64,000 nucleotides of DNA from Xanthomonas vasicola (GTDB taxonomy: Bacteria > Pseudomonadota > Gammaproteobacteria > Xanthomonadales > Xanthomonadaceae): assembly GCF_000772705.2 (NCBI RefSeq), contig NZ_JSBW02000027.1, forward strand, positions 186,001-250,000. Reading direction: 5' to 3'. A program made the translations under genes and the position numbers. The first letter of the stretch is position 1. Each line of letters opens with the position of its first letter. Below the pieces are notes generated by a model, which was given only the letters and a program-made list of their open reading frames with translations, made no database searches and was not told the DNA's origin. Positions 17,556 to 28,018 of the stretch are shown piece after piece.

Positions 17556-17997
17556 CGGTGGCGCAGCTGGTGTACGCGCTGCATCCGCCGGCACCTGCGA
17601 TGTCAGCAAGCATCACGCATCACGCGTGCGATACGCATTGACGCAGCACCGGCATGACGCTCGCTTCAGGCGTCGAATAACGCACGGGCTGCGGCTGGGC
17701 GCATGCAGACGCATGCGAAAACAGCATGCAAACACTGCACCACGACTGCCAGCACCGTTGTTCGATAGATGATCGCGCAAATCACCTTGTTCCGTCAGCA
17801 CTGTGACGCACGTCAACCGATGCGACTGTGTGCTATGGCCAATGCAGCCTCGGCTGCAGCAGTGGAATGAACCTGTACCGAATCGCGCAGGCACATGTGG
17901 GCTGGAATTTAACGTCCGGTGGGACACACTAGAGCCCGTCGCGATGTCGAGCCTCGCTCCACACATCGCCCTCTTCCCCCCACTGACCGGAATCCGC
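17556..17997. other. Gene-free stretch upstream of the beta-helix protein
   Basis: About 440 bp. The downstream frame stays open back to 17803, but that N-terminal extension has no signal-peptide character, so I treat it as non-coding. I see no convincing promoter, terminator or repeat here. Confidence 0.5.
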
Positions 17998-19050
17998 ATG
18001 CCTTCGCTTGCCCGCTCCGTTTCCGCCCTGTTGCCACTGATGTTTGCGACTGCCTGCTCTGCCGCGCCGCCAGCCAAATCCGGCCCGCCGGCTGCGCCTG
18101 TGGCTGCATGCACCGCCAAAGCACGTCCTGGCCAGGACCTGCAAAAAGCCATCGACAAGTTGCCGCAAAGCGATACGCCGGCGGTGTTGTGCCTGGAAAA
18201 AGGCGAGTTCCCGCTTAATGGCCTGGTATCGATCCACCGCGGCAACCTCACCCTGCGCGGTCAAGGCCCCAGCACCATCGTGCGCATGGCCGACGGCGTG
18301 CAGCAGCCGGTTCTGGTGGTCGGCGATTACGAAAACCAGCAGCCCACCGGCGTGATCCGCAATGTCAGCATCGAAGACATGCAGATCGTCGCCAGCACTG
18401 GCGACAAAGAATTCATGCCCGAGCGCCCCTATCTAAGCAATAGCGCAGTAGTGGTGCGGTCCGGGCAAGGCATCCGGCTTGCCGGCCTGCAGGTCAACAA
18501 GTGCCGTAGCGCGTGCTTGCTGAGCGAGTATGACACTCGTGAGATCACCATCGAAAACAACGATGTGTCTGGCGCAATCTGGGACGGCGTGTCGTTCAAC
18601 CGCACCGCCAAGGTCACGATGGTCAATAACTACATCCACGACAACGTGGCTGCTGGTTTGACCACCGAACACCTGGAAGACAGCGAGATTCGCAACAACC
18701 GCTTCGAGCGCAATGGCAGCCAAGGTATCTATCTCTCGGATGCACGGCGCAATCGCTTTAGCAACAATCAATTCGACGGCAACAAAGTGGCTGGCGTGTT
18801 TCTGGCCTGCGCGATTCGTTATCGCACACCGGAAATTTTGTGCTGGGACAACAGCATGAGCCAGGACAACGTATTCGAGAACAACCGTTTCGCCAACATG
18901 CCGTTCACCTACACCATCGGCGTGGACCGGGCAGCCAACTGCACGGCGGCCGACTTCAAGCCGAATCTATGGCGCAACAACCAGGCCGACATGGCCGGTG
19001 TGGATATCGATCCGCAGCGCTATGGGTACTGCGTGCGTCTGGAGCAATGA
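17998..19050 (+). CDS. Secreted right-handed parallel beta-helix protein
   Basis: A 350-residue exported protein. The N-terminus MPSLARSVSALLPLMFATACSA is a signal peptide; the Cys could be lipidated, though the residue at -3 is not typical. The rest is a series of about 22-residue parallel beta-helix rungs with Asn ladders (ENNDVSGAIWDGVSFNRTAK, NNYIHDNVAAGL, IRNNRFERNGSQGIYL, RFSNNQFDGNKVAGVFL). This fold occurs in polysaccharide lyases, NosD-type proteins and surface proteins; I see no catalytic signature that decides. The ATG at 17998 was chosen because it opens the signal peptide. No operon partner is evident. Confidence 0.75.
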   Translation: MPSLARSVSALLPLMFATACSAAPPAKSGPPAAPVAACTAKARPGQDLQKAIDKLPQSDTPAVLCLEKGEFPLNGLVSIHRGNLTLRGQGPSTIVRMADGVQQPVLVVGDYENQQPTGVIRNVSIEDMQIVASTGDKEFMPERPYLSNSAVVVRSGQGIRLAGLQVNKCRSACLLSEYDTREITIENNDVSGAIWDGVSFNRTAKVTMVNNYIHDNVAAGLTTEHLEDSEIRNNRFERNGSQGIYLSDARRNRFSNNQFDGNKVAGVFLACAIRYRTPEILCWDNSMSQDNVFENNRFANMPFTYTIGVDRAANCTAADFKPNLWRNNQADMAGVDIDPQRYGYCVRLEQ

Positions 19051-19119
19051 GACGCGTGCACTAAGAACAGCGGCCAGGCGTGCAGCAATGCACGCCCGGC
19101 CGCTGCAGTTACGGCAGCC

Positions 19120-20814
19120 TTACGAGGCCAGCGCCTGCTCGTGCACCCCGGCAATTGCGCGGCCCGATGGATCTGCCATCGCGGCAAAACTCGCATCCCA
19201 GGCGATCGCGGTTGGCGACGAACAGGCGATCGACTTGCCACCCGGCACCGTTTCCGCCGCCGCCTGGCTGGGGAAGAATTGCTCGAACAAGGTGCGATAG
19301 AAATACGCTTCCTTGGTCTGCGGCGGGTTGACCGGATAGCGTCGATCGGCAGCGGCAAGTTCGCGATCGCTCACCTGCGCTGCGGCGTGCGCTTTCAATC
19401 CGTCGATCCAGCCATAGCCGACGCCGTCGCTGAACTGCTCCTTCTGACGCCACAGAATCGATTCCGGCAGATAGCCCGCGAATGCTTCGCGCAGCACGCC
19501 CTTTTCCATGCGCGTGGCGCCGCTGCTGGTCTTGTCGATCATTTTGAAACTGGCGTCCATGCGCATTGCGACATCCAGGAATTCGCGGTCCAGGAATGGC
19601 ACGCGCGGCTCCACGCCCCAGGCCATCATCGACTTGTTTGCGCGCAGGCAATCGTAGTTGTTGAGCGCCTCGAGCTTGCGCACCAGCTCTTCATGGAATT
19701 CACGCGCGTTCGGCGCCTTATGGAAGTACAGGTAGCCGCCGAAGATCTCGTCGCTGCCTTCGCCGGAGAGCACCATCTTGACGCCCATCGCCTTGATCCG
19801 CCGCGCCAACAAAAACATCGGCGTGGAAGCGCGAATGGTGGTGACGTCGTAGGTTTCGATGTGGCGAATGACGTCGGGCAACGCATCCAACCCTTCTTCG
19901 AAGGTGTATTCGAAACCGTGGTGCACGGTGCCCAGCGCTGCGGCAGCAACTTCCGCCGCAGCCAGATCGGGCGAGCCTTTCAAGCCGATCGCGAACGAAT
20001 GCAGGCGCGGCCACCACGCTTCGGTGGTGTCGTTTTCTTCGACGCGGTGACGGGCGTAGCGCGAAGCAACTGCTGCAACCAACGAGGAATCCAGCCCGCC
20101 CGACAACAACACGCCGTACGGCACGTCGGTCATCAGCTGGCGGTGCACGGCACGCTCGAAGGCTTCGCGCAATTCCTGCAGTTGCACCTGCACGCCTTCC
20201 ACTTCGGCATATTCGCGCCAGGCGCGTTCGTAGTAACGGCTCAGCACCCCGGTGGCGCTGTCGTACCAATGACCCGGCGGGAACTGCGCCGCGTCGGCGC
20301 AATCGTCCACCAGCGATTTCAATTCAGATGCCACCCGCAGGCGGCCTTCGCGGTCGTGCCCCCAGTACAGCGGCACCACACCGATCGGGTCGCGCGCGAT
20401 GATCACCCGCCCTTCCGTCTTGTCCCACAGCGCGAACGCAAAGATGCCGTTGAGGCGGTTGAGATACGAGGCCGGCGCATCTTCGCGATACAGCGCATTG
20501 ATCACCTCGCAATCGGAGCCGGTCTGGAAGGCGTACGGGTGCAGCAGTTCGGCCTTGAGTTCGCGATGGTTGTAGATCTCGCCATTGACCGCCAAGGCGA
20601 GCTGCCCGTCTTCGGATAGCAGCGGCTGCGAGCCGCCGGCCGGGTCGACGATGGCAAGGCGCTCGTGCACCAGAATGGCACCGGTATCGACGTAGACGCC
20701 GCTCCAGTCGGGCCCGCGATGACGCTGCCGCTGCGAACATTCCAGTGCCTGCCGGCGCAGCGCCTGCAGATCGTCACCGGGTTGCAGGCCGAAAATACCG
20801 AAGATGGAACACAT
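19120..20814 (-). CDS. asnB: Asparagine synthetase B (glutamine-hydrolysing)
   Basis: Converts aspartate, glutamine and ATP to asparagine, glutamate and AMP. The 564 residues match the family. The class II glutaminase domain starts at Cys2 (MCSIFGIFGL), which is the catalytic nucleophile after Met removal and fixes the start at 20814. The synthetase domain has the ATP pyrophosphatase P-loop LSGGLDSSLVAA and the LSGEGSDEIFGGY motif. A ribosome binding site (AGGAG) lies 9 nt upstream. It is the last gene of the minus-strand dapD...dapE run, but a leader peptide rich in Asn codons and an intrinsic terminator separate it from dapE, pointing to its own attenuation control by asparagine supply. Confidence 0.96.
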   Translation of the reverse strand: MCSIFGIFGLQPGDDLQALRRQALECSQRQRHRGPDWSGVYVDTGAILVHERLAIVDPAGGSQPLLSEDGQLALAVNGEIYNHRELKAELLHPYAFQTGSDCEVINALYREDAPASYLNRLNGIFAFALWDKTEGRVIIARDPIGVVPLYWGHDREGRLRVASELKSLVDDCADAAQFPPGHWYDSATGVLSRYYERAWREYAEVEGVQVQLQELREAFERAVHRQLMTDVPYGVLLSGGLDSSLVAAVASRYARHRVEENDTTEAWWPRLHSFAIGLKGSPDLAAAEVAAAALGTVHHGFEYTFEEGLDALPDVIRHIETYDVTTIRASTPMFLLARRIKAMGVKMVLSGEGSDEIFGGYLYFHKAPNAREFHEELVRKLEALNNYDCLRANKSMMAWGVEPRVPFLDREFLDVAMRMDASFKMIDKTSSGATRMEKGVLREAFAGYLPESILWRQKEQFSDGVGYGWIDGLKAHAAAQVSDRELAAADRRYPVNPPQTKEAYFYRTLFEQFFPSQAAAETVPGGKSIACSSPTAIAWDASFAAMADPSGRAIAGVHEQALAS

Positions 20815-20883
20815 GGAGACACTCCTGAAAAACTGCGGGGGTTGGCGGCCGGTGAGAGACCGTGCTGCATGAAAATGACACCC

Positions 20884-20915
20884 AAAAAAAACCCGCATCG
20901 GCCGATGCGGGTTTT
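20884..20915 (-). terminator. Attenuator terminator upstream of asnB
   Basis: A perfect palindrome at 20888-20915 with 14-nt arms (AAAACCCGCATCGG and its complement) is followed on the minus strand by eight T residues (20891-20884). It lies 70 nt upstream of the asnB ATG and downstream of the Asn-rich leader frame, so it would stop transcription before asnB. The 5' arm can instead pair with an upstream copy of the 3' arm (20955-20967), which would prevent terminator formation. Confidence 0.85.
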
Positions 20916-20944
20916 CTGATTCCTGGGCGATTGGTGGATTTCGC

Positions 20945-21034
20945 CTAGTCGCAGACCCGCATCGGCCGCGCACGATTATTCGTGCGCAGATTGTTGCGGT
21001 TGGCGTTATTGAGGTTGGCAAAGCGAATGACCAT
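20945..21034 (-). CDS. Asn-rich leader peptide of asnB
   Basis: A 29-codon frame from ATG at 21034 to TAG at 20945, with Asn at residues 7, 9, 10, 12, 14, 15, 19 and 20 (eight of 29). The Asn codons run over a self-complementary stretch (GCGCACGA-ATAA-TCGTGCGC). The last codons cover GGCCGATGCGGGT (20967-20955), identical to the 3' arm of the terminator 40-80 nt downstream. This is the layout of trpL/hisL/ilvL-type leaders: stalling at Asn codons would free the copy to pair with the terminator's 5' arm. No good ribosome binding site is visible before the ATG, which is the main weakness. It begins 74 nt after the dapE stop. Confidence 0.72.
   Translation of the reverse strand: MVIRFANLNNANRNNLRTNNRARPMRVCD
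20951..20998 (-). promoter_or_regulatory. Antiterminator / pause hairpin segment of the asnB attenuator
   Basis: Segment 2 (20967-20955, GGCCGATGCGGGT on the minus strand) can pair over 13 bp with the terminator's 5' arm (+ strand 20900-20912). Upstream, CCGCA and the 8-bp stem GCGCACGA/TCGTGCGC can fold with UGCGG of segment 2 into the alternative 1:2 hairpin. The UAG stop directly follows segment 2, so a ribosome finishing the leader would mask it and let the terminator form. Confidence 0.65.
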
Positions 21035-21107
21035 GTGGCCGACGCTAACCGTTCGGTTTCATCGGCGCAACTGTTTCAGCGGCAACGACGGCGTGCACGT
21101 GACCCGA

Positions 21108-22238
21108 TCACCCGACCAGCAAGCGCTCGATCAGCGTGCGATACAGCGCCGGCAGCGCCTGCAGATCGGCCACACGCACGTGCTCGTCGACCTGATGGAT
21201 GCTGGCGTTGACCGGGCCGACTTCGATGCACTGCGCGCCCAGCGGTGCGATGAACCGCGCGTCGGAAGTACCGCCACCGGTGCTCTCTTCCGGCGGCGCA
21301 CCGGCGAACTCACCCAACACCTCACGCGCGACACTGCGCAAGCGCCCTTCCGGTGTGTAGAACGGCTCGCCGCTGCGATGCCAGCGCAACGCATAGTCCA
21401 GCGCATGCCGATCGAGCAGTGCAGTGATTTCGGCCTCCAGGCGCGGCGCGTCCCAGTGGGGCGTGTAGCGCAGATTGAAGGCCACCTGCAGCTCGCCGGG
21501 GATCACGTTATTGGCGCCTGTGCCGGCGTGGATATTGGAGAGTTGCAGACTGGTCGGCGGAAAACTTTCGAAGCCATCGTCCCATTGCCGCGCGACCAAT
21601 TCGGCCAGCGCAGGCGCTGCCAGATGAATCGGATTGCGCGCCTTCTGTGGGTACGCCACGTGCCCCTGCACGCCCTTGACGGTGAGCGTACCGGACAGGC
21701 TGCCGCGACGACCGACGCGCAACAGATCACCCAAGCGCTCGGTAGACGATGGCTCCCCGGTAATGCACCAATCGATCGCCTGCCCGCGTTCGCGAAATAG
21801 GTTAGCGACACGGCGCACGCCATCGATGGCATCGCCCTCCTCATCAGAAGTCAGCAACACTGCCAGCGTGCCGGCATGCGTGGGATGCGCGGCAACGAAC
21901 TGCTCTGCGGCAACCACGAACGCAGCGACGCTGCCTTTCATGTCAGCCGTACCGCGCCCATACAGCACGCCGTCGCGGATCTGCGGATCGAACGGATCGC
22001 TGGTCCACACTTCGCGCGGGCCCGGCGGTACCACATCGGTATGCCCCAGCAGCACCAGCACCGGCGCGCCACTGCCATGCGTGGCCCATAGATTGTCGAC
22101 CTCGCCCAGTCGCAAGTACTCGCAAGCAAAGCCGGCGGCAGTCAAGCGCTCTGCAAGCAGCGCTTGGCAACCAGCATCGTCAGGGGTCACCGAGGCGCGT
22201 GCGATCAGATCGCAGGTCAGCTTCAGCACATCGTTCAT
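21108..22238 (-). CDS. dapE: Succinyl-diaminopimelate desuccinylase
   Basis: Zinc metallopeptidase-like enzyme (M20 family) that cleaves N-succinyl-LL-diaminopimelate in lysine and peptidoglycan precursor synthesis. The 376 residues match the family. Metal-site motifs are [12 protein letters not shown] (His, with Asp in [12 protein letters not shown]), [11 protein letters not shown] with the Glu pair, and the C-terminal [13 protein letters not shown] region. It lies downstream of dapD and an arsC-like gene in the same direction, as in the yffB-dapE pair of E. coli. It starts 18 nt after the broken GNAT gene. Confidence 0.96.
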
Positions 22239-22256
22239 GTCGTCAGGCCTTTTTGA

Positions 22257-22741
22257 TCACACGGTTGATTTATGCGTCGCTGGGGCAGCATCCGGGCCAT
22301 GCCACTGCATCGCCTGCACGCGCACCGCAAAACGCTCGTGTCCCGGCATACGGCCGCCGTGGCGGCCGGTGATGCCAAAGCCGCAGCGTTGGTAGAACGC
22401 CAGTGCCGTGTCATTTCCTTGCAGCAATTCCAGCGAAAGGACGTTCGGGCGGTCCTGCGGGACCGCTGCAACCAGCGCTGCGCCCACGCCGCGTCGTTGC
22501 GCGTCCGGCGCCACAGACAGCCAGGCGAGTTCCTGCGCATCGTAGGCCACGCATCCCACCACGCGTCCGTCGAGCTCGCCACGCGCAACATATAGTCGAA
22601 CGGTGACTCACGCTCGGCGGCGATCGGCAGGGGTAGAAACGCTTTCGGCAAGCCGGCCGCCCGCAGCGCCTGCTGCCGCGCCGCATCGTGTACGGCACAC
22701 AGCGTGAGCCAGTCCTCGGCCTGGTAGGGCCGCACGTTCAC
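22257..22741 (-). pseudogene. GNAT acetyltransferase, frameshifted
   Basis: Two overlapping frames together encode one GNAT protein of about 160 residues. The N-terminal part runs from GTG at 22741 (MNVRPYQAEDWLTLCAVHDA) to SPFDY. The C-terminal part, in another frame, carries ELAWLSVAPDAQRRGVGAAL, the acetyl-CoA-binding motif A, then LAFYQRCGFGITGR. The frames meet at TATA (22591-22594); a single TA would restore one frame reading FDYVARGELDGRVVGCVAYD. So this is probably a TA-duplication frameshift or a sequencing error. The GTG overlaps the stop of the arsC-like gene (GTGA), showing it belonged to the operon. Confidence 0.8.
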
Positions 22742-23094
22742 TCGATGTCGAACCGCTTCTTGAAGCCGTTATCGGAGAATCCTTGGCTCAACGCGTCGTC
22801 GTCGGTGACGACCACGGGCCGTCGGATCAGCTGCGGATACTCGCGCAGCAGCAGCTTCCATTCGGCCTGCGAGCCAGGCGTCTTTTTGTTGTCCGGCAAC
22901 TGGCGCCAGGTGGTCGAGGACTTGTTGATCAATGCATCGAATCCGCCGGCCTGTTCGGCCCAGGCGACCAGCGTTTCCGGCTCGGGTTTTTGCTCGCGGT
23001 AATCGACGAACGTGTAGGCCACGCCGAAGCGATCCAGCCACTTGGTTGCCTTCTTGCAGGTGTCGCAATTCTTCAATCCGTACAGCGTGGTCAT
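22738..23094 (-). CDS. ArsC/Spx-family reductase-like protein (YffB type)
   Basis: A 118-residue thioredoxin-fold protein, the usual length. It opens [20 protein letters not shown], with a CxxC-type Cys pair at the redox position, and has the conserved INKSSTTWRQLP and LIRRPVVVTDDD. Such proteins are related to arsenate reductase but usually have no role in arsenic resistance; the E. coli homologue yffB is also next to dapE. Starts and stops overlap both neighbours by 4 nt (ATGA upstream, GTGA downstream), so translation is probably coupled. Confidence 0.9.
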   Translation of the reverse strand: MTTLYGLKNCDTCKKATKWLDRFGVAYTFVDYREQKPEPETLVAWAEQAGGFDALINKSSTTWRQLPDNKKTPGSQAEWKLLLREYPQLIRRPVVVTDDDALSQGFSDNGFKKRFDIE

Positions 23095-24635: not shown

Positions 24636-27245
24636 CTAGACAGGGTCGAGGCAGGCACACAGCGCATCGCGCAGTGCCTGCCGGGCGGATTCGGACAACG
24701 GGCGGTCGTGCTCGTCGGTGATCTGGAACTGGTCTTCGGCGCGCTCGCCGAAGGTGGCGATGCGCGCATCGTGCACACGCAGGTGCTGGATGCGCAGCAC
24801 ATGCGCCACATCGGCAAGCAGGCCGGGACGGTCGGGCGCGACCAGGCTGATGCGGGTGCGGCGGCCGCCGGCGCTTTCGCTGAACTCCACCCGCGGTGCA
24901 AAGCGGAAATGCCGCAGCTGGCGCGGCACTGCGCGCCGTGCCGGACGCACCTTCTGCAGGTCGCCGGCAAGCACCTGGCGCAGCGTTGCCGCCAGCCGCT
25001 GCGGGTCGCCGTCGGCATACGTTTCCTGCGGCAGCACTTCGAACACGTCGAAGATCGCATCGTGCGGCGCGTCCAGCACGCGTGCGCGGTGAATACCGTA
25101 GCCCTTGCGATCGAGCGTGGCCACGATGGCCGCAAACAGTCCATCGCGGTCCGGCGAATACACGAACACTTCCAGTGCATCGTTGTCCGGCACCGCACGC
25201 CGCGCCTTGACCAGGGTCTGGCCGATGTCCACTTCGATCAGCGACGCTGCCTGCCAGGCCAATTGCTCGGGACGGAAGCGCAGGAAGTTTTCGTCCGGCA
25301 TGCCGGCGAATTGCCGGTCGATGGTGGCATCGTCATGCCCTTGCGCCTGCATCAATGCACGTGCGGATTCGCGTGCTTCGCGTAGACGTTCTTCGCGCGG
25401 CGGCGGATGTTCCAGGCCTTCGCGCAAGGCGCGGCGTGCAGCGAAATACAGATCCGCCAATAGCCGGTCTTTCCATGCATTCCACAGTTTGGGACTGGTG
25501 CCGGCGATGTCGGCGCAGGTGAGCAGATACAGATAATCCAGACGCTCGCGTGTGCCGACCAGAGTGGCGAAACGATGGATCACTTCCGCGTCGGAGATGT
25601 CCTGCTTCTGCGCGGTAACCGACATGCGCAAATGCTGCTCCACCAACCAGGTCACCAGTTCGGTATCACCTTCGCTCAGACGATGCGCAAGGCAGAACGC
25701 GCGCGCATCCACCGCGCCCAGTTCGGAATGATCGCCGCCACGGCCTTTGGCGATATCGTGAAACAGGCCGGCCAGTAGCAGCAGTTCCGGCTTGCGCAGA
25801 CGCGGCCAGACTTCATGCGCAATAGAAAAACGCTCGTCGGCGCGGCCGGCGGCAAACAGCGCGATGTTCCGCAACACCATCAGGGTGTGCTGATCCACCG
25901 TATAGACATGGAACAGGTCGAACTGCATGCGCCCGGAAACGCTGGCGAATGCCGGAATCCACTGCCCCAACACACCGAGCCGCGCCATGCGATTGAGCGT
26001 TTCCACCGCACGCGGGCCGCGCAACAGCGCCATAAAGCGCTCGCGGGCAGTGGCATCTGCCACGTCGTACGCCGGCAACTCGCGCAGCACCTCGGCCAGC
26101 GCGCGCGCAGTCAACGAATGCAGGCCGCGTACCTCGCGGTGTGCCGCCCATTGCGCGAACAGTGCAAACACCTGCAACACATCATCGCCCGGCCAGCTGT
26201 CCGAGTCGGCAGCCAAATAGCCGCGGCGCAGGCTGAAGCCGTCGCGCAGCGGTTCCGGTGTCGCTTCGCCATCGAACTGTTCTTCGAAGCGCTGCAGCAG
26301 CCGGTCGCTGATGCGACGAATCAACGCAGCGCTGCGATAAAAGCGCTGCATCATTTTTTCCACACCCAGGCTTTCCAGGTCGTCAGCAAACCCCAGCCGT
26401 TCGGCGAGGGTCTTTTGGTAGTCGAAACGCAGGCGCTCTTCCGGCCGATTGGCCACGATGTGCAGACCGAAACGCAGGCGGGCGAGCTCTTCGCGCTCGC
26501 GACGCAATGCGGCGGCTTCGTCGAAACCGACATGGCCCAGCCCGACCAAGGCTTCCAGATCCTTGACCCCGAACGCACGCAGCGCCATCCAGCCGAGCGT
26601 CTGCAGATCGCGCAGGCCGCCGGGGCCATCCTTGATGTCGGGTTCCAGGTTGTCGGCGGTGTCGCCGAAGCGCTGATGGCGCGCCAGTAATTCCTCGCGC
26701 TTGGCCTGGAAGAAATCGCGCGGCGGCCACACCTGTGGCGGCGCGATCGCCGCGGCCAGTGCAGCGCGCGCGGCGGCATCGGCCACCAGCGCGCGCGATT
26801 CGATCAAGGCAGTGAGCACGGTCTGGTCGGCCGCTGCCGCCGTGCACTGCGCTGGCGAGCGCACCGCATGACTGATCGGCAGGCCCACATCCCACAGCAG
26901 CGCAAACAAGCGCGCCAGGGCCTGCTCGTGCTGCTGCTGCGCGACGCTTTCGCCCAGCACCAACACATCCACATCCGAGCGTGGGAACAGTTCGCCGCGC
27001 CCATAGCCGCCGACCGCATGCAGCGACAAACCGCTATCGGCCGGAATGCAGCGGGTCCACGCATTGCGCATCAATTGGTCGACCGCGCGTGCGCGCAGAG
27101 CGACCAGCCGCTCGATCGGTTCGCCCTGATCGAAGCGTTTGCATAGGCGCATGTCCGCATGCACCAGCAGCGGACGGGCCTGCGCGGCCCATTCCGCGTC
27201 GCCGGCGACGCCCGGGTCGGGTCGCTCCGCCGGCGTCTCCGTCAT
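24636..27245 (-). CDS. glnD: Bifunctional PII uridylyltransferase/uridylyl-removing enzyme
   Basis: Senses glutamine and (de)uridylylates the PII proteins, controlling nitrogen metabolism. The 869 residues match the family. Domains in order: nucleotidyltransferase with [17 protein letters not shown] (about residues 85-101), GlnD linker domain, HD hydrolase domain ([26 protein letters not shown]), and two C-terminal ACT domains ([40 protein letters not shown]) that bind glutamine. The ATG at 27245 overlaps the map stop (ATGA); the frame is open further up but that part is inside map. Confidence 0.97.
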
Positions 27246-28018
27246 ACCGGCGCTGGCGAATTGGCCGACAGCGTCAGCACATCCACGCCGTCTTCGGTGA
27301 CTGCCACCATGTGTTCCCACTGCGCCGACAACTTGCGGTCCTTGGTGACCACGGTCCAGCCGTCCGGCAGCGTCTTATGGTGATAGGTGCCTTCGTTGAT
27401 CATCGGCTCGATGGTGAAGGTCATGCCCGGCTTGAGCACCAGCCCTTCGCCCGGACGGCCGTAATGCATCACCTGCGGCTCGTCGTGATAGACCTTGCCG
27501 ATGCCGTGGCCGCAGTAATCGCGCACCACGCTGAAGCGCTCGGATTCGGCGAACTTCTGGATGGCATGGCCCACATCGCCCAGGGTGGCGCCCGGCTTGA
27601 CCGCGCGGATGCCGCGCCACATCGCTTCATACGTCGTCTCGACCAAACGCTTGGCCATCACCGACGGGGTGCCCACGTAGTACATGCGGCTGGTGTCGCC
27701 GTGCCAGCCATCCTTGATGACGGTGACGTCGATATTGACGATGTCGCCGTCCTTCAACACCTTGGCGGCGCTCGGAATGCCGTGACAGATCACGTTGTTG
27801 ACCGAGGTACACACGCTTTTGGGGAAGCCGCGGTAGCCGACATTGGCAGGAATGGTGCCCTGCACGTTGACGATGTGGTCGTGGCAGATGCGGTCCAGCT
27901 CGGCCGTGGTCACGCCCGGCTGGACGTGGGGGCCCACAACATCGAGCACTTCGGCGGCCAGGCGGCCGGCGACGCGCATCAGTTCGATTTCTTCTTTAGT
28001 TTTTAGATTGACGCTCAT
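27242..28018 (-). CDS. map: Methionine aminopeptidase, type I
   Basis: Removes N-terminal Met from nascent proteins. The 258 residues match the type I family. Metal ligands are seen in NIDVTVIKDGWHGDTSRMY (two Asp), GHGIG (His), MTFTIEPM (Glu) and TEDGVDVLT (Glu). It starts the minus-strand run and is coupled to glnD by an ATGA overlap. In many gammaproteobacteria map is divergent from rpsB with only a short gap; here a pilus cluster of about 6 kb separates them. Confidence 0.97.
   Translation of the reverse strand: MSVNLKTKEEIELMRVAGRLAAEVLDVVGPHVQPGVTTAELDRICHDHIVNVQGTIPANVGYRGFPKSVCTSVNNVICHGIPSAAKVLKDGDIVNIDVTVIKDGWHGDTSRMYYVGTPSVMAKRLVETTYEAMWRGIRAVKPGATLGDVGHAIQKFAESERFSVVRDYCGHGIGKVYHDEPQVMHYGRPGEGLVLKPGMTFTIEPMINEGTYHHKTLPDGWTVVTKDRKLSAQWEHMVAVTEDGVDVLTLSANSPAPV

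Follow-up and report, generated by a model that had tools for sequence, protein, structure and literature searches.

A predicted and probably leaderless asparagine leader-peptide attenuator upstream of asnB in Xanthomonas vasicola and relatives of its order

The trp, his, leu, ilv, thr and pheA attenuators of Proteobacteria consist of a short frame rich in codons for the product amino acid, followed by a terminator and a competing antiterminator that is blocked by a ribosome at the stop codon, directly before a biosynthetic gene. In Firmicutes, asparagine genes are controlled by T-boxes, which report the charging of Asn-tRNA by reading the tRNA directly, without translation of a leader. Leader frames at the very 5′ end of an RNA are described, in the available part of each report, for trpL (rnTrpL/peTrpL) of Sinorhizobium meliloti, whose RNA 5′ end lies at the leader ATG and for which roles in trans are reported (PMC7298713), and for the leaderless leader peptides leuL, trpL, ilvL, metL and thrL of Streptomyces lividans, which precede amino-acid, transport or tRNA-synthetase genes and several of which have no clear intrinsic terminator (PMC8079986). 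The word asparagine is absent from the main text, as far as available, of PMC2965389, PMC1262725, PMC7298713, PMC1183508 and PMC8079986, and we recognised no description of an asparagine leader peptide in the accessible parts of the open-access literature, although Vitreschak et al. 2004, who compared attenuators across Proteobacteria, may have predicted one.

Here we describe an element upstream of asnB in a 64,000-nt stretch of the Xanthomonas vasicola genome (the window). It resembles the proteobacterial attenuators in the frame, in the terminator with its competing antiterminator and in its position before a biosynthetic gene, and differs from them in its asparagine signal, in being probably leaderless and in showing no 1:2 protector beyond shuffled sequences. 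Like the T-boxes of Firmicutes it would report Asn-tRNA charging, but by way of a translated leader. With S. meliloti trpL it shares the predicted 5′ end at the leader ATG, the amino acid there being tryptophan, and with the S. lividans leaders, which belong to another phylum and serve other amino acids, it shares the leaderless frame, as far as the two partly available papers describe them. The features are collected in Table 1.

Table 1 Features of the asnB leader locus in the window
Feature	Position	Strand	Remark
-35 box TTGCGC of leader promoter	21065..21070	-	
-10 box TAGCGT	21042..21047	-	N17 between boxes; 7 nt before leader ATG
Leader peptide frame	20945..21034	-	29 sense codons, 8 Asn (4 AAC, 4 AAT); stop TAG 20947-20945
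Hairpin GCGCACGA-AUAA-UCGUGCGC inside leader frame	20968..20987	-	contains AAU AAU codons; RNA fold of window leader
Region 2, GGCCGATGCGGGT, antiterminator strand	20955..20967	-	exact 13-nt copy of 20903-20891
Small hairpin GGCGA...TCGCC	20926..20945	-	stop codon to terminator interval; fold of window leader
Palindrome AAAACCCGCATCGGCCGATGCGGGTTTT, intrinsic terminator	20915-20888	-	28 nt; read directly
Region 3, terminator 5′ arm AAAACCCGCATCGG, also partner of region 2	20902..20915	-	
Region 4, terminator 3′ arm and run of 8 T	20884..20901	-	T run 20891-20884
asnB, asparagine synthase B, presumed regulated gene	19120..20814	-	564 aa
dapE, gene upstream of leader	22238-21108	-	NCBIfam
Next long frame 3′ of asnB	17803-19050	+	415 aa, convergent

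The initial annotation of the window, made from the letters alone, had proposed a minus-strand frame of 29 codons with eight Asn, shortly followed by an intrinsic terminator and placed between dapE and asnB. The frame and the palindrome were read directly, and both genes were named by NCBIfam (asparagine synthase B, 869.6 bits with a cut-off of 499; dapE, 544.2 bits with a cut-off of 361.8). A run of codons for the product amino acid thus precedes the predicted asparagine synthase B gene, with a predicted intrinsic terminator in between; 29 nt separate the end of the frame from the 5′ arm of the palindrome, and 69 nt separate the T run from the start of asnB. The exact 13-nt copy at the end of the leader is there as well, and because it is identical to the loop plus 3′ arm of the terminator, it can pair with the 5′ arm. 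Two details had to be corrected: the 28-nt palindrome and the eight T both exist but are not separate, four T being shared by both, and the stop codon does not follow the copy directly, since 7 nt lie between the copy and TAG. The hairpin inside the leader frame is possibly a pause hairpin, as judged from its fold, and the small hairpin after the stop codon recalls the extra hairpin of the his attenuator in the available part of PMC1183508. Since the next downstream long frame is convergent, asnB is probably transcribed alone, as a single-gene transcript. The asnB of the window is the sole full-length match in its own genome, with more distant asnB-like stretches at two other places.

The Asn codons were compared with what shuffled sequences give. 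Within 450 nt upstream, the window holds a 13-codon stretch with 7 Asn, against a maximum of 3 in 20 dinucleotide shuffles and 1 on the reverse strand. Among the 193 regions scored, 124 hold 5 to 8 Asn in 13 codons, and the maximum over all shuffles (20 dinucleotide shuffles for each region) was 5, reached in 7 regions, and 3 on the reverse strands. Of the residues in the leader frame 18.6% are Asn, whereas the two alternative frames give 0.1% and 0.2%; Ala and Arg, though also common in the leader frame, are not specific to it. Over 142 regions, the Asn codons of the leaders comprise 483 AAC and 432 AAT. Both codons being frequent, the Asn residue is retained as its third base drifts, and this codon pattern together with the frame-specific Asn content indicates that the leader frame is selected as protein code. 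The share of AAT is 432/915 in the leaders, 43/297 in the asnB genes of 37 relatives, and 11/28 when asnB, dapE and the frame 24636-27320 of the window are pooled. The excess of AAT in the leaders may mean either that AAU serves as the more sensitive codon for control or that it keeps the run unpaired.

Conservation was assessed in the best 80 named asnB loci and in 120 loci from further genomes of the window's order. At E ≤ 1e-150, asnB was matched in 213 of 299 genomes of the order, and the 120 loci were taken among the matches listed, sorted by score, so that this sample leans to close orthologues. Together with the window this gave 201 regions, 195 of them distinct. Frame and terminator were both present in 147 of the 200 asnB upstream regions outside the window, that is, at 110 of the 120 loci among the matches listed and at 37 of the best 80 named loci. 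A short frame with at least 3 Asn in 13 codons occurred in 151 of the 195 distinct regions; seven of these (L054, L056, L060, L070, L071, L073 and L074), labelled Shewanella, Colwellia, Vibrio and others, were rejected as leaders, having 3-4 Asn and lacking the layout, which left 144. A terminator was found by the script in 142 of these 144 leaders. The two leaders in which the script found none, L018 and L022, are picked up by the covariance model described below, which ends in the terminator, at 62.8 and 52.2 bits. At L142 an Asn-rich frame and a terminator were seen by eye further upstream (the genome matches the model at 55.1 bits), and at L143 the region is cut at the edge of a sequence piece (55.7 bits). 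Both of these last loci belong to a single genus of the same family, and their leader terminators are unusually distant from asnB, roughly 280-370 nt upstream, with GC-rich repeat-like DNA in between.

Of the 37 element-bearing loci among the best 80 named, 36 are labelled as this order and one (L005) as Pseudomonadota only. The script found no element at the other 43 of the best 80, L018 and L022 included; four of the loci without an element by script are nevertheless labelled as this order (L049, L052, L059 and L078). Three loci without a leader by script, labelled Holophagales, Rhodococcus and Deltaproteobacteria (L015, L027 and L039), carry an asnB 73-80% identical to that of the window, which points either to transfer or to mislabelled or contaminated assemblies. 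In the remaining element-less loci of the best 80 named (Vibrio, Shewanella and others, and the four labelled as this order) asnB is 58-67% identical. Neither was frame plus terminator found at the last eight of the 120 further loci (L203-L210), all from one other family of the order (f9).

Given that dapE lies upstream in the window and that a terminator is expected somewhere after it, the palindrome might be taken for an ordinary intergenic terminator of dapE beside a fortuitous Asn-rich frame, with no regulation involved. The relatives argue strongly against this. Among 41 loci, some with sequenced pieces that hold little upstream DNA, dapE was present in the piece in just 13, in 5 of which its end lay no more than about 310 nt from asnB, yet the element is present in 38 of the 41, which shows that it belongs to asnB and not to dapE. 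Kept Asn residues with a free third base, an alternative helix that covaries and a promoter between dapE and the leader frame would also be unexpected of such a terminator, and we regard this explanation as very improbable.

To describe the reach of the element, a covariance model was built from 24 leaders. In the window's own genome it gave one match at 92.8 bits, the next scoring 30.6. Across 299 genomes of the order, 133 matches of at least 45 bits were counted by hand among the matches listed, all in three families (f1, f2 and f12), and among 274 genomes across the class, searched with stricter filters, the only three to reach 45 bits belong to the window's own family, and the other 271 score 36.6 at best. 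The 45-bit threshold was chosen after the scores were known, and the model is blunt below about 45 bits: at E ≤ 0.01 there are matches in 249 of the 299 order genomes and in 157 of the 274 class genomes, many of which are plain terminators. Five elements at asnB loci (G231, G261, G214, G265 and G249) score 37.0-41.5 bits, within the background range, five named loci (L036, L023, L016, L044 and L014) score from 44.7 to 29.6 bits, and a place away from asnB in one genome (G185) reaches 43 bits. Since true elements overlap the background scores, a weak relative outside the order is possible, the best score there being 36.6. On the evidence of these matches, the element is found in three families of the order.

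The pairings that an attenuator needs were then evaluated in the leaders. The mean energy of the 2:3 duplex of each leader is -27.2 kcal/mol, compared with -22.1 when region 2 is combined with region 3 of other leaders and -16.3 when region 2 is shuffled; the leader's own duplex reaches P ≤ 0.05 in 122 of 142 leaders and does not beat shuffles in 20, and in the window it amounts to -33.4 kcal/mol (z of -6.1 against shuffles). Region 2 lies near the stop codon: measured from the end of that codon, the 2:3 segment stops somewhere from 10 nt before to 4 nt after in 137 of 142 leaders. Antiterminator and terminator exclude each other. Region 3 contains a CCCGC core in 139 of 142 leaders; the three leaders without it were excluded, and all fold and co-change counts below are over 139. 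Region-3 bases around the core change together with both partners, the position after the core reading T:A:T in 56, C:G:C in 8 and G:C:G in 6 of the 139, a count that leans towards pairing because the pairs come from predicted folds.

To score covariation, 24 leaders were aligned with MAFFT; one of the sequences contained a typing slip. For the 3:4 helix the score was 0.387 against 0.169 in shuffled alignments, and none of 500 shuffles reached it. For the 2:3 helix it was 0.099 against 0.072, with one of 500 shuffles reaching it and slid versions at 0.027-0.052. This second test is the weaker one, as much of the helix is a nearly invariant GCGGG core that is uninformative on covariation, 73.9% of the cells pair, and two of five measures were reached by 26 and 138 of the 500 shuffles. 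In this alignment, therefore, covariation supports the 3:4 helix strongly and the 2:3 helix moderately. The initial annotation had tied its reading to an Asn-rich frame and covarying stems in related genomes: the frame and the 3:4 and 2:3 helices are all present there, while the 1:2 stem did not hold up, as set out below. Its comparison with trp, his and ilv attenuation, transferred to asparagine, gains support from the conserved frame and these two helices.

The start of the leader is also distinctive. A pattern of TTGC-N2-N16..18, a hexamer ending in T, N6..7 and an in-frame start codon is present in 130 of 142 leaders, where 17 or 18 nt separate the two hexamers. None of the 616 other ATGs of these regions is preceded by it; the pattern was derived from the same sequences on which it was counted. 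Leader length in the 130 ranges from 20 to 45 codons. At the usual distance between a -10 box and the transcription start the RNA should begin at the AUG, and in the window the start is predicted at 21034 or within about 1 nt. A Shine-Dalgarno-like 5-mer was found at 0 of 142 leader starts versus 100 of 142 asnB starts, with start codons as first assigned, some of which were later moved, and with one extra 5-mer in the asnB list. As the start codon follows a conserved promoter at 6-7 nt and no Shine-Dalgarno-like motif is seen, we consider it likely that the leader frame is translated as leaderless mRNA.

A second probably leaderless leader was seen by eye in the same genome (L215:1514-1636, minus strand). 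It is of ilv type, with an LLVLVLI run of branched-chain residues in place of Asn, and by eye shares the layout of the asn leader, down to promoter-like boxes that end 6-7 nt before the ATG and a region-2 copy of its terminator-like hairpin. It lies upstream of the gene that precedes an acetolactate synthase match, a gene which we take to be ilvC from its sequence.

A discrete terminated RNA with a leaderless layout is predicted here, and by the precedent of rnTrpL/peTrpL in the accessible text of PMC7298713 the terminated leader RNA or the Asn-rich peptide could, besides attenuation, act in trans. A conserved function of the peptide is disfavoured by the listing of leaders, in which the part before the Asn run appears to differ from clade to clade in both length and sequence, and such a role appears unlikely to us.

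Ribosome positions were modelled by folding the leaders with 13 nt hidden from the A site onward, an assumption of the model. With the ribosome at the stop codon, the terminator forms in 139 of 139 leaders. At the stage when region 4 is still to be made, region 3 pairs with upstream sequence in all 139 leaders if the ribosome is placed at the first or middle Asn, in 112 if it is at the last Asn of the run, in 37 if it is at the stop codon and in 124 if there is no ribosome. The equilibrium fold of the full leader was rejected as a sole account, since it does not reproduce the switch in most relatives, whereas the fold before region 4 does: with the ribosome at the middle Asn, the full leader takes up the antiterminator in just 43 of 139, the window being one of them, and the terminator in 96. 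Timing must therefore matter, and the 2:3 helix would have to form during transcription.

The initial annotation had also proposed an upstream stem that sequesters the copy. Although the core of region 2 is occupied before region 3 appears in 137 of 139 leaders, its occupancy is 0.84 versus 0.81 when the upstream part is shuffled, and it exceeds all 10 shuffles in 20 of 139, so no 1:2 protector beyond shuffles was found in these folds. The models lean somewhat against such a protector in the asn leaders; the odds of the main claim are unchanged by this control, as that claim rests on the frame and the 2:3 and 3:4 helices.

These folds bear on a further explanation, in which attenuation is real but its main signal is the ribosome-free state, so that the leader reports the translation of leaderless mRNAs. 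The upstream pairing of region 3 in the 124 ribosome-free leaders, the lack of a 1:2 protector beyond shuffles and the starts devoid of Shine-Dalgarno-like 5-mers all fit it. It leaves the conserved Asn run unexplained, however, and the ribosome-free full leader at equilibrium takes up the terminator in 123 of 139; the window is an exception, its leader favouring the antiterminator (0.98). We therefore hold this explanation to be quite improbable.

With regard to the signal, the host genome has an AsnRS match at 630.7 bits, and no match to GatB or AsnA was found in it. Asn-tRNA should accordingly be made from free Asn, and its charging should report free Asn. The hisG of the same genome (L214) has no His-rich leader in roughly 400 nt upstream and thus provided no control, and the ilv-type leader served as control by eye; directly upstream of hisG lies a small frame which by eye is regulator-like.

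As T-boxes are known at asparagine genes in Firmicutes, a structured riboswitch or T-box-like RNA was also considered, one to which Asn or tRNA-Asn would bind directly and in which no leader is translated. An Rfam scan of 19000-23000 at E ≤ 5 returned 9 matches, all below threshold, with no T-box or riboswitch among them; Leu_leader (RF00512) gave 23.8 bits (E of 0.089) and missed its gathering score of 50 bits, and the locus stays below the gathering score of every Rfam family. Upstream of region 2, conservation lies in the Asn frame, while the leaders with the promoter pattern vary between 20 and 45 codons. A direct-binding RNA of this kind seems to us extremely improbable.

Taken together, the sequence evidence makes it very probable that the element is a ribosome-mediated transcription attenuator, with read-through into asnB dependent on Asn-tRNA charging, and its mechanism is probably that of the trp, his and ilv attenuators. 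Transcription would start at or adjoining the leader AUG, and the leader frame would be translated as leaderless mRNA. When Asn-tRNA is charged, the ribosome would reach the stop codon and cover region 2, region 3 would pair with region 4, and RNA polymerase would stop before asnB. When asparagine is short, the ribosome would stall in the Asn run and leave region 2 free to capture region 3 ahead of the synthesis of region 4, so that the polymerase would read into asnB. A bolder version, in which the leaderless attenuator of these three families integrates Asn-tRNA charging with the capacity for leaderless initiation and its leader RNA or peptide has targets in trans, is speculative, and we give it a small chance.

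In the available part of PMC4504480, AsnB of Xanthomonas oryzae pv. oryzicola is reported to be regulated by DSF and Clp; if this is the same asnB gene, attenuation would be a second, amino-acid-specific layer beside DSF/Clp. With 130 of 142 leaders looking leaderless, the element would offer a natural test of attenuation with a ribosome loading on a bare 5′ AUG. If the proposed attenuator is true, asparagine would join the amino acids sensed by classical leader-peptide attenuation, in a host group that includes plant pathogens and environmental species, and the leader would be a ready reporter of Asn-tRNA charging.
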